From positions 1 to 34,637 of the forward strand of contig CACIXQ010000010.1 of assembly GCA_902590655.1 (NCBI GenBank): a stretch of 34,637 bases of DNA. The letters run 5' to 3'. Positions within the stretch are counted from its first letter, which is position 1, and every line of letters starts with the position of its first letter. The DNA is from an uncultured marine group I thaumarchaeote. Lineage in GTDB: Archaea; Thermoproteota; Nitrososphaeria; Nitrososphaerales; Nitrosopumilaceae. The notes below the pieces were generated by a model that was not told the origin of the DNA, made no database searches, and worked only from the letters and a program-made list of their open reading frames with translations. The translations under genes and the position numbers were made by a program. Shown one piece after another: positions 3,910-9,303 of the stretch.

Positions 3910-4071
3910 ATGTCTGTTGATATAAGCTGTGGAAAATGTGGTGAGAAGATCTCTACCATGCAGATGCTCAAGTCTGTAAAGGATGTTCTAAAACATTATA
4001 ATAATAAATGTCCAGCTTGTGGACAGACACTTTCAACAACTGAATTTTCGCTAGATGTAGAAAGGAAATAA
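3910..4071 (+). CDS. Small zinc-ribbon protein (53 aa)
   Basis: This is a short reading frame with two C-x2-C knuckles, C-G-K-C near the N-terminus and C-P-A-C near residue 34-37, separated by a helical segment (S-V-K-D-V-L-K-H-Y). That is the layout of a single zinc ribbon. Function is unknown; such proteins usually bind nucleic acid or another protein. A TATA-like box at leaderless distance supports it as a real gene. It is followed by a 91-base AT-rich gap before the winged-helix/NrdD-like gene. Confidence 0.65.
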   Translation: MSVDISCGKCGEKISTMQMLKSVKDVLKHYNNKCPACGQTLSTTEFSLDVERK

Positions 4072-4132: not shown

Positions 4133-4142
4133 CCTTAATTAC
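4133..4142 (+). promoter_or_regulatory. Possible TATA box for the winged-helix/NrdD-like gene
   Basis: CCTTAATTAC is centred 25 bases before TTG 4163. A TGATCA palindrome lies at 4118-4123, just upstream. Both are compatible with a leaderless transcript, but the box is weak. Confidence 0.4.
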
Positions 4143-4162
4143 TTCTTTTTTTATTAATAATT

Positions 4163-6337
4163 TTGTTGGGGAGTAAAAAAAAGTTAGAACTAGAGGAGGA
4201 TCTAGATCTTGAATCTGATATGGATCTAGATGATGTAGGTGATATTGATGATGATGAACTTAGTTTAGATGAAGAACCATCAGGCAATCAAGTATTACAA
4301 TCTACATCCAAACGTGTAAGGATGATCTTTTCTGTTATGGCTAGCCCAAACAGAATTGACATATTAAGAATTCTCAATTCAAAAGGACCACTTACCTATT
4401 CCGAATTAAAATCTCTGGCTGGATTTAAATCAAAGAAAGAGAGTGGAAAGTTTGCATATCATCTAAGAAAATTACTGAGACAATCTCTTGTAGCTTTAAA
4501 CAAATCCGAAAGAAGGTACACAATTACAAATCTGGGCAAACTTGTCCTAAGCCTTGCAAGACAGATTGAAGAGCGATCAATTATTGAAAGCGGCAAAATG
4601 TATGTAAGAACATCACATGATTCAATTGAGGAGTTTAATTCTCAGAAAATAATTCAATCGCTAGTTCGTGAGGGCAGCTTACCGCTGGAATTGGCACAAA
4701 AAATAACAGAGGAAGTTGAAAACCGTATTTACAAATACCAGACTGCATATCTTACTGGTTCTCTCATTCGTGAGTTGGTTAATTCAGTGCTGTTAGAACA
4801 TGGGCATGAAGAGTATAGACACAAACTAGCACGAGTTGGGCTGCCTACTTTTGAAGTGCAAGAAATGATATCAAATGCAGAAAACGTAGATAATGGAGCT
4901 GAGGGGTTATTATTCAAGACTGGCCAAACTGTATTTGCTGAGCATCTTCTTACAAGCACACTTCCAAAGGATATAGCAGATGCGCATTTATCAGCCGATC
5001 TTCATATCACTAATCTTGGATTATGGTCAATCCTACCAGATACTATATTCATAAATGTAAAGACACTGATTGAGGACGGCCTTGATCTTAAAGGGAAGTC
5101 ACTCGGAGTCTGTAGAATTCCATCAGTTAAAACATTAGGTAACCTATCTTCTGCGCTATCCATAATTATTGCACTCATTTCAAAAGAGGCTTCTCAGGAA
5201 GTAGTTATGGATGACCTAGTTCCATTACTCTCAAAACACTCAAAAGATTTATCTGAACTTGAAAACAAACTTGTTGATTCCTTTACAACATCTTCTACAA
5301 CTGTAGGGTATAGTAGAGCTTCAACAGTAGTCTCATTTAGAATTCCACTGGGAACAGATCAAAAAATTGTAAAAACTGTACTCTCTGCATACAAAACGTA
5401 TGCACAACTTACACCAGTCCCAAGGATCGGTCTTGTTATTGATTATGAGAAAGGGAAAATCACAGATGTATCATCTATAATATCCGAAATTATTTCTCTT
5501 GGAGGCAAAGTCATGTTTACGAAACATAATATCTCCCAAAAGGGAATTGTTTGTAAAAAAAATCCAACTTCTACTGTACTGCATCTTGGTTCATTATCTA
5601 TTAACCTTCCACGTTTAGCATTCGAATCAAATAAAGATGAGACTTATTTTCGAGCAAGACTTGCATTGTTAATGAAGCCTGCTTTAGCTGCTATGGCTTT
5701 ACGCAACAAAACCATCTCTAATCTTATCAGACTAGGAGTCAATCCAATACTTGCTGCTAACACACAATATATGCAACGTGGTACGGTATCTTTAGTGGTT
5801 AACCTAGTGGGTTTACAGAATGCAGTTTATGGTATACTTGGATTCAAAGATAATAAAGAAGGACAAGAAATTCTACACAAAGTAGTAGAAACTGCTGTAG
5901 ATATTGCTTCAAAGAAGGGTAAAGAACTTGGAATTGATGTAATTGTTGGAATGACTAGCAGTGATGGCTCTGACAGATTTATTTCTCTAGACGGTGATAA
6001 ATATGGAAAAAACTCTGTACAAGAAATTTCCAATAGTGAAACATATTCAGAAGGAATGGAATTTGATATTGATACATTATCAAACCTGACTGGAAAGAGT
6101 ACAGAGATCACAGAATGTAATAGGATTAGTAAGATTCTTGATGGTAATTTGTTCGTACAGATTATGATGGGAAGAGGAACTGATGGAGATAAAATTAAAA
6201 AAGTTATTGAGAAAGCATCTAGCATTACTAACTCATTCAAGCCAATTATGCAAGTACCAACCTGTGGAAATTGTGGATTTAAGGACTCCAAACTTGCCGA
6301 GAAATGCCCCAGTTGCAAATCTACCTATATCATATAA
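4163..6337 (+). CDS. Winged-helix / ATP-cone / degenerate NrdD-like protein, candidate regulator of ribonucleotide reductase
   Basis: This 724-residue protein has four recognisable parts. Residues 8-40 form a strongly acidic tail. Residues about 48-145 form an ArsR-like winged helix (S-P-N-R-I-D-I-L-R-I-L, then a helix and wing ending R-R-Y-T-I-T-N-L-G-K-L). Residues about 155-235 resemble an ATP-cone (F-N-S-Q-K-I-I-Q-S-L, then H-G-H-E-E-Y). Residues about 245-724 resemble anaerobic reductase NrdD (L-H-I-T-N-L-G, L-S-I-N-L-P-R-L, N-L-V-G-L-Q-N-A) and end in the NrdD-type zinc site C701-x2-C704, C715-x2-C718. I see no glycyl-radical motif, so it should not be catalytic. It is co-oriented with nrdJ, 144 bases upstream. 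I infer a nucleotide-sensing transcription factor. The start is TTG; no upstream ATG fits. Confidence 0.8.
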   Translation: MLGSKKKLELEEDLDLESDMDLDDVGDIDDDELSLDEEPSGNQVLQSTSKRVRMIFSVMASPNRIDILRILNSKGPLTYSELKSLAGFKSKKESGKFAYHLRKLLRQSLVALNKSERRYTITNLGKLVLSLARQIEERSIIESGKMYVRTSHDSIEEFNSQKIIQSLVREGSLPLELAQKITEEVENRIYKYQTAYLTGSLIRELVNSVLLEHGHEEYRHKLARVGLPTFEVQEMISNAENVDNGAEGLLFKTGQTVFAEHLLTSTLPKDIADAHLSADLHITNLGLWSILPDTIFINVKTLIEDGLDLKGKSLGVCRIPSVKTLGNLSSALSIIIALISKEASQEVVMDDLVPLLSKHSKDLSELENKLVDSFTTSSTTVGYSRASTVVSFRIPLGTDQKIVKTVLSAYKTYAQLTPVPRIGLVIDYEKGKITDVSSIISEIISLGGKVMFTKHNISQKGIVCKKNPTSTVLHLGSLSINLPRLAFESNKDETYFRARLALLMKPALAAMALRNKTISNLIRLGVNPILAANTQYMQRGTVSLVVNLVGLQNAVYGILGFKDNKEGQEILHKVVETAVDIASKKGKELGIDVIVGMTSSDGSDRFISLDGDKYGKNSVQEISNSETYSEGMEFDIDTLSNLTGKSTEITECNRISKILDGNLFVQIMMGRGTDGDKIKKVIEKASSITNSFKPIMQVPTCGNCGFKDSKLAEKCPSCKSTYII

Positions 6338-6360
6338 AGATCCAGTGTCTTATTGCAGTT

Positions 6361-6422
6361 GATCGCTGATCTACAAATTTGAAATTTTGTTAAAAAAATT
6401 CACCCAAATTAGATCTTAGATC
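6361..6422 (+). promoter_or_regulatory. Candidate operator region: two GATC-N3-GATC elements upstream of nrdJ
   Basis: GATCgctGATC lies at 6361-6371 and GATCttaGATC at 6412-6422, with left ends 51 bases apart. The second is a perfect inverted repeat around one base (GATCT-T-AGATC) and ends about 20 bases before the TATA-like box. This is where an archaeal regulator could act. The recurrence is seen directly; the operator role is inferred. Confidence 0.35.
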
Positions 6423-6443
6423 AAAAATACTTTTGCAGAGAAG

Positions 6444-6450
6444 TTATATG
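6444..6450 (+). promoter_or_regulatory. nrdJ: TATA-like box of nrdJ, with a short leader
   Basis: TTATATG lies about 35 bases before GTG 6482. Unlike most genes here, this allows a leader of roughly 10 bases, and GGGGAG at 6472-6477 could act as a weak ribosome binding site five bases before the start. Confidence 0.4.
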
Positions 6451-6481
6451 CTCATTATTCTCACTGTATGCGGGGAGTATT

Positions 6482-9139
6482 GTGGCAGACAACAAATCTC
6501 AGGTAGAGCATTCTATTTCACAAGTTAGGAAGAGGGATGGATCAGTTTCAGACTTTAACAGAGACAAAATATTAATTGCAATTCATAAGGCATTTTCAGC
6601 TTCAAATAATCCAGATAAGGAAATCGCGGCACAACTCTGCGATGGCGTACTAGCCAAATTAACTGAGCATGGATTTTCAGCAAATAACCCTCCAAGTGTA
6701 GAATCTATTCAGGATCTAGTGGAATCAACCCTAATCGATCAAGGTCATAGCGATATTGCTAAGAGCTATATCCTGTATCGCCATGAACGTAGGAAGATTA
6801 GAGAAGAAAAGATGAAAGTATTAAATACTAAAACACTTGATTCGGTAGGAAAATCTTTCGATATTAATTGTTTGAGGGTTTTGGCTTCTCGTTATCTTTT
6901 CCGTGATAATAAGAACGAAATCATTGAAAAGCCATCTGAATTATTTGAAAGGGTCGCAGTTCTAGTTAGCATTTCTGACCTGATGCGGGATAATTATCTA
7001 TTCACCAAGGAGGGTGGAATATCCCAAAATCTAGAGGAAGCAGCAGAATATCTCAAAAAACTAGATGATTTTAACTACAAATTCAAGATAGGCAAGTATT
7101 ATCTAAATAAATGGCATTTCAGATGCCTCATAAACTGCTATCTTGATCTTGCAAAGCAAGGAATGATGAAGGTAGCATTCAAGGAACTCCTAACCATGCT
7201 TGCATCCAAAAAATTTGATGCTTATGCGGATAGGATATCAGAATACTATGAATTAATGACATCTCAAGACTTTTTGCCAAATTCACCTACTATGATGAAT
7301 GCAGGCGGACGTTTAGGTCAACTTTCTGCTTGTTTTGTTTTGGGAATGCCTGACGACATGCAAGGAATAATGAAATCAACCTCTGATGCTGCTTTGATTT
7401 TCAAATCTGGCGGTGGTGTGGGAATCAACTATTCTGATCTTCGTGATGAAGGAGAGATCGTTGCATCTACTTCTGGAGTAGCATCAGGGCCTGTATCTTT
7501 CATGAATATAATCAACACTGTAACTGAAGTAGTAAAGCAGGGTGGAAAAAGAAGAGGTGCAAACATGGGAATTATGGAAGTTTGGCATCCAGATATTGAG
7601 AAATTTATTACAAACAAGACAGAGCCAGGAGTATTAGAAAATTTCAATGTTAGTGTAGGTGTATGGAAGGATTTTTGGGACGTTCTTGTAAATTCTACAG
7701 ATGGAAAATATACACTACGTTCTCCAAAGGACAACACATCAGCTGGAGAAATAAACGCACATCATTTAATTGATGTCATAGCTCAATCAGCTTGGAAGAG
7801 TGCAGAGCCAGGATTAATCTTCTTTGATAATATCAACAAATACAATGTATTTGAGAAGGCACGTGGAGGTCCACTCCGTGCAACTAACCCATGTGGCGAA
7901 CAAAGTCTTTACCCATACGAATCTTGTAATCTAGGCTCAATCAACTTATCAAATCTTGTCAAAAGAACAGCTGATGGTCAGTACGAATTTGATTGGCAAA
8001 GATACGAGGAAACTATTAGAAAAACTACAAGATACTTAGATAATATTATAGATGTAAATCTATACCCCGTACCAGAAATTGATGTTGCATCAAAGGACTC
8101 TAGGAGGATAGGACTAGGAGTTATGGGAGTAGCTGATCTATTATACAAACTTCGAATTCCATATAACTCAAAAGAAGGATACGACTTTCAATTAAAACTG
8201 GCTGAAGCACTTTCATATTATTCCATGGAAGAAAGTGTTGCACTAGCAAAAAGTCGTGGTGAATTTCCACTGTGTTCTAAAACAGACTATCCAGAAGGAA
8301 AGATTCCAATTGCAGGATATTATGAGAAATCAAACAAAGAACATTACTACGATTGGGATGCACTTATTGAAAAAATTCAAAAATATGGAATCAGAAATGT
8401 TCTCACTACAACAGTAGCACCAACTGGTACTCTATCTATGTTAGCTGATTGCTCTAATGGAATGGAACCAAACTTTGCACTTGTTTTTGAAAAGAGAGTA
8501 ACGGTAGGCAGATTCTTTTACACAAACAAAGTGTTTGAATCTGTTTTAAAAGAAAACAATCTCTATAGCGATGAACTACTTGCAAAGATAGCCGATAACT
8601 ATGGTTCTGTTAGAGGAATACCTGAAGTTCCAGATTGGATTCAGAACATCTTTGTTACTGCAATGGATATACATTGGGCTGATCATGTTATAGCACAATC
8701 GGTATGGCAAGATTGGATTGGAAATGCAATTTCTAAAACAATTAACATGCCAAGCGATGTAACTGCTGATGACGTTAAAGCTTCTTATCTCTTGGCACAT
8801 GAAGTGGGATTAAAAGGAATAACAGTTTATAGAGATGGTTCGAGGCACAAACAAGTTTTGCATATGACAAGTGAAAATGCAACAAAAACATTTGAGGTAA
8901 AACCAAGCAATTATCTTGTGAGTTTCATCTCAGATAATATTACAAATGAATACGTCAGATCACAAATCAACAACGCATTATCATCTGTCAAACTAGAAGA
9001 TTCACCTAGACCAACACAGATGAATGTGGACGATGAAAGGGAAGAAGTCTTATGTCCTTCGTGTAAGAATAAACTCATTTTTGTTGAAGGATGCAATATC
9101 TGCATTGATTGTGGATATAGTGGCTGTACATCAGGATAG
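6482..9139 (+). CDS. nrdJ: Class II (adenosylcobalamin-dependent) ribonucleoside-diphosphate reductase
   Basis: This 885-residue enzyme reduces ribonucleotides to deoxyribonucleotides using a cobalamin-generated thiyl radical. An N-terminal ATP-cone (about residues 13-105; V-R-K-R-D-G-S-V-S-D-F-N) provides allosteric control. The barrel contains N-S-P-T-M-M-N-A-G (near 266) followed by the Cys of L-S-A-C-F-V-L-G (near 284), the catalytic motif N-P-C-G-E (near 469) and A-P-T-G-T-L-S-M. The C-terminal Cys-rich tail (C-P-S-C near 857, C-N-I-C-I-D-C-G-Y-S-G-C near 871-882) would shuttle reducing equivalents. The start is GTG 6482. Its B12 need fits the cobamide genes near the end of the window. 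Confidence 0.96.
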   Translation: MADNKSQVEHSISQVRKRDGSVSDFNRDKILIAIHKAFSASNNPDKEIAAQLCDGVLAKLTEHGFSANNPPSVESIQDLVESTLIDQGHSDIAKSYILYRHERRKIREEKMKVLNTKTLDSVGKSFDINCLRVLASRYLFRDNKNEIIEKPSELFERVAVLVSISDLMRDNYLFTKEGGISQNLEEAAEYLKKLDDFNYKFKIGKYYLNKWHFRCLINCYLDLAKQGMMKVAFKELLTMLASKKFDAYADRISEYYELMTSQDFLPNSPTMMNAGGRLGQLSACFVLGMPDDMQGIMKSTSDAALIFKSGGGVGINYSDLRDEGEIVASTSGVASGPVSFMNIINTVTEVVKQGGKRRGANMGIMEVWHPDIEKFITNKTEPGVLENFNVSVGVWKDFWDVLVNSTDGKYTLRSPKDNTSAGEINAHHLIDVIAQSAWKSAEPGLIFFDNINKYNVFEKARGGPLRATNPCGEQSLYPYESCNLGSINLSNLVKRTADGQYEFDWQRYEETIRKTTRYLDNIIDVNLYPVPEIDVASKDSRRIGLGVMGVADLLYKLRIPYNSKEGYDFQLKLAEALSYYSMEESVALAKSRGEFPLCSKTDYPEGKIPIAGYYEKSNKEHYYDWDALIEKIQKYGIRNVLTTTVAPTGTLSMLADCSNGMEPNFALVFEKRVTVGRFFYTNKVFESVLKENNLYSDELLAKIADNYGSVRGIPEVPDWIQNIFVTAMDIHWADHVIAQSVWQDWIGNAISKTINMPSDVTADDVKASYLLAHEVGLKGITVYRDGSRHKQVLHMTSENATKTFEVKPSNYLVSFISDNITNEYVRSQINNALSSVKLEDSPRPTQMNVDDEREEVLCPSCKNKLIFVEGCNICIDCGYSGCTSG

Positions 9140-9161: not shown

Positions 9162-9185
9162 TCAGCAGAAAAATTTGCAACATAT

Positions 9186-9259
9186 GCGGTCATAGTATAG
9201 CCTGGTTAGTATTCGGGGTTTCCAACCCTGTGACGCGGGTTCGAATCCCGCTGACCGCA
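9186..9259 (+). tRNA. tRNA-Gly (anticodon UCC)
   Basis: The 74-base gene folds as a full cloverleaf. The acceptor stem GCGGTCA/TGACCGC is perfect, followed by discriminator A. The anticodon stem CGGGG/CCCTG encloses the loop TTTCCAA, giving anticodon TCC for GGA codons. The T arm GCGGG-TTCGAAT-CCCGC is perfect. The D stem (GTAT/GTAT) relies on two G-U pairs around the loop AGCCTGGTTA, and the variable loop is four bases. CCA is not encoded and there is no intron. Confidence 0.95.
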
Positions 9260-9303
9260 TTCAATTAGATTCAATTTTTTAGTAGTGTGTTGTGCGTTAA
9301 ATT

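Follow-up and report, generated by a model that had tools for sequence, protein, structure and literature searches.

The protein encoded directly ahead of nrdJ in a marine thaumarchaeote is probably a transcription factor built from a complete, dead class III ribonucleotide reductase (NrdD), with an ATP-cone that would sense ATP and dATP so that expression of nrdJ follows the demand for dNTPs. The gene was analysed in a stretch of 34,637 nucleotides of genomic DNA (hereafter the window) and in related archaeal loci. A regulatory role is proposed because the DNA-reading region of the protein is conserved almost totally, its linkage to nrdJ is robust and the nrdJ promoter carries a helically phased element.

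The architecture of the protein, a winged helix followed by an ATP-cone and an NrdD-like body with its zinc site, and its position directly upstream of a class II nrdJ (Table 1) had been read from the sequence in a first-pass annotation and were confirmed by Pfam and profile-profile comparisons. Four Pfam models matched the regulator above their curated gathering cut-offs: DUF7347, which is winged-helix-like (residues 55-129, 40.7 bits), HTH_20 (59-111, 32.5 bits), ATP-cone (PF03477; 146-218, 35.9 bits) and NRDD (best stretch 474-720, 77.8 bits). NRDD, DUF7347 and ATP-cone were each matched in all 28 diverse family members, and HTH_20 in 23 of them. Alignment of the family with true archaeal NrdD (profile-profile, hhalign) gave a probability of 100% and an E-value of 7e-64 over 606 aligned columns that span cone, body and zinc site. 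Among PDB sequences, the family profile retrieved NrdD structures at 1e-34 and, weakly, the ArsR-family regulators NmtR, HlyU and ArsR (2e-3 to 9e-3); the N-terminal winged helix, which the first-pass annotation had put forward as refutable, is thus backed by sequence profiles. All 34 PDB fold matches with E <=0.001 to the predicted full-length structure, a low-confidence model, were NrdD. Mean AlphaFold pLDDT was 56.5 for the full length and 57.4 for the N-terminal fragment, values that are low because the input alignment, comprising the window and related loci, was narrow; at this confidence the N-terminal model does not corroborate the winged helix.

Table 1. Features of the regulator and nrdJ genes (window coordinates).
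Feature	Position	Strand	Remarks
Putative core promoter of the regulator gene, CTTAATTACTTC	4134..4145	+	Conserved in Nitrosopumilaceae
Pseudo-reductase regulator gene: winged helix, ATP-cone, inactive NrdD body and zinc ribbon	4163..6337	+	724 aa from TTG
Acidic N-terminal tail, residues 1-44	4163..4294	+	Lineage-specific, poorly kept
ArsR-like winged helix-turn-helix, residues 45-135	4295..4567	+	Contains GFKSKKESGKFAYHLRKL
ATP-cone, residues 146-232	4598..4858	+	Signature VRT...E-x-F...K-I kept
NrdD-like body, residues 233-695	4859..6247	+	NLPR motif kept; without conserved catalytic cysteine
Zinc site C701-x2-C704 ... C715-x2-C718	6263..6319	+	Protein end precedes the glycyl-radical loop
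Candidate operator box P2, TTGTTAAAAAAATTCACC	6387..6404	+	Differs from GTGTnAA-N5-TTGAnC at 2 positions; lies 39 bp ahead of the TATA element
Putative TATA element of nrdJ, TTATAT	6444..6449	+	
nrdJ, class II (B12-dependent) ribonucleotide reductase	6482..9139	+	885 aa, own ATP-cone; presumed target; next gene after the regulator

Two features noticed in the first-pass annotation are present in the window's protein and do not extend to the whole family. The acidic tail is missing in most relatives (23% identity), and one subclade of the window's genus (L018, L020, L023 and related loci) has lost the NrdD zinc site through truncation of the C-terminus, which ends in ...FKPIK; the zinc site is therefore dispensable there. 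Comparison with relatives in the genus indicates that translation probably starts at the second TTG, at 4166. Those close relatives that bear a name belong to the marine thaumarchaeotes, family Nitrosopumilaceae. Upstream of the regulator gene (window 3910-4071) there is a 53-aa ORF with two CxxC pairs, zinc-ribbon-like in pattern (SCGKCGEK ... CPACGQT), and a similar coding sequence is conserved at the equivalent place in most Nitrosopumilaceae loci. A tRNA-Gly (TCC) gene is located directly downstream of nrdJ, at window 9185-9260.

Judged from its sequence, the body of the regulator is a catalytically dead NrdD. The glycyl-radical motif R[VIL]xGY was detected in none of 175 distinct members and in all three true NrdD controls, which agrees with its reported absence from the window's protein; a radical site in close homologues had been named as an observation that would speak against that reading. 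Members from Nitrososphaeria end 5-20 residues past the zinc site, and several phylum-level members carry a vestigial loop that has the same length as the true one and is devoid of the radical glycine, as exemplified by RTENMFTPLTLWAEAKRKDLENR in L076 versus RVTGYYQAVSGWNKGKREELANR in the true NrdD of L084. Against the NrdD equivalog model the regulator scored 74 bits, far below the 326-bit cut-off. The only cysteines conserved among the 28 diverse members are the four zinc ligands, and therefore both catalytic cysteines of NrdD (radical loop and first barrel strand), which in Prevotella copri are Cys171 and Cys416 (PMC11226230), are gone. An alternative in which the protein is still an active class III reductase, of unusual chemistry and with an acquired winged helix, would explain the full-length homology, the retained NrdD fold and the persistence of the zinc site and NLPR motif. 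It is nevertheless scarcely credible given the universal lack of the radical motif, the truncated or vestigial loop and the loss of the catalytic cysteine; in addition, the hosts are ammonia-oxidising archaea, which are aerobic, and glycyl radicals would not survive there.

Members of the family are encoded in 240 of the 250 genomes surveyed from the class. A phylum-wide sample yielded a match of any kind in 189 of 250 genomes, some of them ordinary NrdDs and many of them fusions, with open frames of 540-790 codons. How widely the gene is linked to nrdJ was a question raised by the first-pass annotation: within the order, 54 of 55 genomes have nrdJ as the immediate same-strand neighbour of the regulator (the remaining one is a fragmented assembly), and the same arrangement was observed in all 147 fetched loci with enough flank, a set in which some genomes were fetched twice. 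In another group of the class (L093-L095) the two genes are adjacent but convergent. At L079 the regulator is followed on one strand by a glutaredoxin gene and a true nrdD, and gene size and spacing indicate a similar layout at L084. Of 20 phylum-level loci sampled, 18 showed neither an NrdJ-type nor an NrdD-type reductase next to the regulator. Nearly all of 61 genomes have no barrel-type reductase gene other than nrdJ, and a true NrdD was present in one of the 61. NrdR (TIGR00244) did not exceed the cut-off in any of 100 genomes of the class, with control genomes positive as expected. A phage or plasmid origin of the family was discarded, as there was no phage match and the single plasmid match was an ordinary nrdD.

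Several individual loci deserve mention. The regulator gene of L034, from the GC-rich genome G031, is split into two overlapping frames and is intact in G168, of the same genus; a frameshift or a sequencing error is possible. The nrdJ frames of L040 and L043 comprise 1046-1149 codons and show lower similarity to the window's NrdJ, which suggests inserts, possibly inteins. Two records labelled Phycisphaerales and Proteobacteria (L119 and L190) contain a thaumarchaeal regulator at 69-70% identity and are probably mislabelled or mixed metagenome bins.

Sequence conservation is distributed very unevenly along the protein. Averaged over pairs of Nitrososphaerales sequences, identity reaches 0.79 for the winged helix and 0.66 for the cone; it falls to 0.49 near the NLPR motif, to 0.28-0.32 over most of the body and to 0.23 for the acidic tail. 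The stretch GFKSKKESGKFAYHLRKL of the winged helix is invariant or nearly so throughout the order. Conservation in the cone concerns E156 and R149, which are invariant, F158 and K162, nearly so, and V148 and I163, which are also kept. As a pattern match, E156 and F158 parallel, with the same E-x-F spacing, the residues E56 and F58 through which NrdR reads adenine (PMC9110341). For the cone model, which is of low confidence, the top-ranking fold matches were NrdR cones (best E 5e-3).

The nrdJ promoter was compared in the gap between regulator and nrdJ of 89 fetched loci, nearly all from Nitrosopumilaceae, and was found to contain a conserved two-part element upstream of the TATA box, formed by a palindrome (P1) and a proximal box (P2). 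P1 (TATGAAnTTCATA) occurred exactly in 41 of the 89 loci and never in shuffled sequences, and P2 (GTGTnAA-N5-TTGAnC) with at most one mismatch in 54 of the 89 against 0.3 expected, figures that overstate the significance because one and the same alignment served to define the motifs and to count them, and because the loci are related. A stronger argument is the spacing between P2 and the TATA box. Among the 79 promoters with a TATA-like word inside the 20-50 bp search range, this distance was 28-31 or 38-40 bp in 77, two classes that are one helical turn apart, and it changed about 11 times on the protein tree (two of these changes possibly derive from the two outliers). Such repeated switching by one turn points to a protein bound on one face of the DNA and not to an RNA element. 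The centres of P1 and P2 are separated by 21.5 bp, approximately two helical turns, in 44 loci.

With zero or one mismatch, the P1-P2 composite was present once per genome, beside nrdJ, in 6 of the 12 genomes tested; all other matches had three mismatches and were about as numerous as those of the reversed control. The GC-rich genome G031 also retains P2, with one mismatch. The window's genus has lost P1 and has a degenerate P2 with 2-3 mismatches; in the window's own nrdJ promoter P1 is not recognisable. In the nrdJ promoters of Nitrososphaeraceae no shared palindrome and no recognisable form of the element was seen, although the winged helix is nearly identical there. Two further uses of the motifs were discarded: P2 alone does not serve as a regulon marker, its genome-wide frequency being no higher than that of the reversed control, and P1 is not an autoregulatory site, TATGAAnTTCATA being absent upstream of the regulator in all 81 loci inspected, even with two mismatches allowed. 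The gap between the two genes (6338-6481) also contains GATCnnnGATC twice, at window 6361-6371 and 6412-6422, and the second copy (TTAGATCTTAGATCAAA) is conserved in the window's close relatives.

In the mechanism proposed, the regulator would be dimeric or of higher order, with the reductase body as dimerisation platform; its winged helices would bind the composite element ahead of nrdJ, and ATP or dATP in the cone would shift the affinity for DNA, so that nrdJ expression would track dNTP demand. We infer that the protein sitting at P1/P2 would be the pseudo-reductase itself, tuned by ATP/dATP. In archaea, a site 28-40 bp ahead of the TATA box is more usual for activators than for repressors, which mostly bind across the TATA box or the start. 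Because P2 lies at such a distance, activation of nrdJ at low dATP is considered slightly likelier than repression at high dATP. The regulatory role suggested in the first-pass annotation is thus sustained by the conserved DNA-reading region, by a linkage that survives both gene inversion and a change of reductase class and by the phased promoter element; its assumption of NrdR-like repression is not, since the position of the site fits an activator better.

Two other functions can be envisaged for the dead reductase. It may be a transcription factor that controls many genes, such as those of replication or of the growth phase, nrdJ being one target or a mere neighbour. In favour of this, most other groups have the family gene away from any reductase gene, and short P2-like sites elsewhere, at chance level, leave room for further true targets; this explanation is nonetheless unlikely, as genomes with an intact P1-P2 composite have it at nrdJ and nowhere else, and linkage to a reductase gene recurs across different reductase classes and orientations. 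The dead reductase may instead bind NrdJ as a regulatory subunit, either inhibiting or stabilising it, with the winged helix devoted to protein contacts or autoregulation. In its favour, reductases are known to contact one another in oligomers through their cones, a body of reductase origin could associate with a reductase, and the linkage to nrdJ is tight. This function is quite unlikely too, because the best-conserved part is the winged helix and not the body, the family occurs with class II as well as class III enzymes and in many cases shows no linkage to them, and the nrdJ promoter contains helically phased sites. As for the preferred reading, a nucleotide-sensing regulator of nrdJ, several points count against it. 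Regulator and motif are tied by proximity alone, so that another factor could bind the motif. The element is conserved in Nitrosopumilaceae and not recognisably in Nitrososphaeraceae, it is eroded in the window's own genus, and P2 by itself is at background frequency genome-wide. The predicted structures are of low confidence, and most phylum-level relatives are not beside a reductase gene.

ATP-cone regulators ahead of reductase genes (NrdR) and enzymes turned regulators in other pathways were already known. The combination described here and the breadth of the family are new to us, and no earlier description of the architecture was found in the open-access literature searched, subscription papers being outside its scope. 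Ammonia-oxidising archaea are among the most abundant cells in the ocean; they are devoid of NrdR, and the dead reductase would fill the role that NrdR plays in bacteria. The family represents a specific, conserved and testable candidate for the transcriptional tuning of archaeal DNA precursors, with one protein, one promoter and one candidate operator, as well as an enzyme turned sensor for its own pathway in which intermediate stages (vestigial radical loops) are visible in living lineages. More tentatively, and with considerable doubt, a whole reductase might have replaced NrdR as a nucleotide-sensing transcription factor across much of Thermoproteota, possibly as an activator. In true NrdD the specificity site is held at the dimer interface of the reductase body, and since the regulator has kept both the ATP-cone and this body, it may read several dNTPs at once and not dATP alone.

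Among known systems, NrdR resembles the regulator in joining an ATP-cone to a DNA-binding domain, in its linkage to reductase genes, illustrated by the nrdR-nrdJ gene order of Streptomyces (PMC9110341), and in its use of two boxes spaced by whole helical turns, as P1 and P2 are in the nrdJ promoter. The two differ in that NrdR places an N-terminal zinc ribbon before the cone, whereas the regulator has a winged helix and a whole dead reductase, with candidate sites well upstream of the TATA box; the NrdR family model TIGR00244 was not among the regulator's own matches. NrdD (PF13597, TIGR02487) aligns over its full length with the regulator, including cone, body and C-terminal zinc site, but the regulator is devoid of the glycyl-radical loop and the catalytic cysteines and has an added winged helix. 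With the ArsR/SmtB family the regulator shares a winged helix that resembles HTH_20, HTH_5, NmtR and HlyU in sequence; it is, however, a multidomain protein of 724 aa and not a stand-alone metal sensor, and its counterpart of the ArsR metal-binding helix, YSELKSLAGFKSKKESGKFAYHL, contains no cysteine. Regulators derived from enzymes include NrtR (Nudix) and PurR (phosphoribosyltransferase), in which a catalytic fold became the ligand sensor for its own pathway. To our knowledge, none of this type derives from a ribonucleotide reductase or retains the ATP-cone of one; the thaumarchaeal protein would resemble them as a catalytic fold turned into the ligand-sensing part of a transcription factor of its own pathway.
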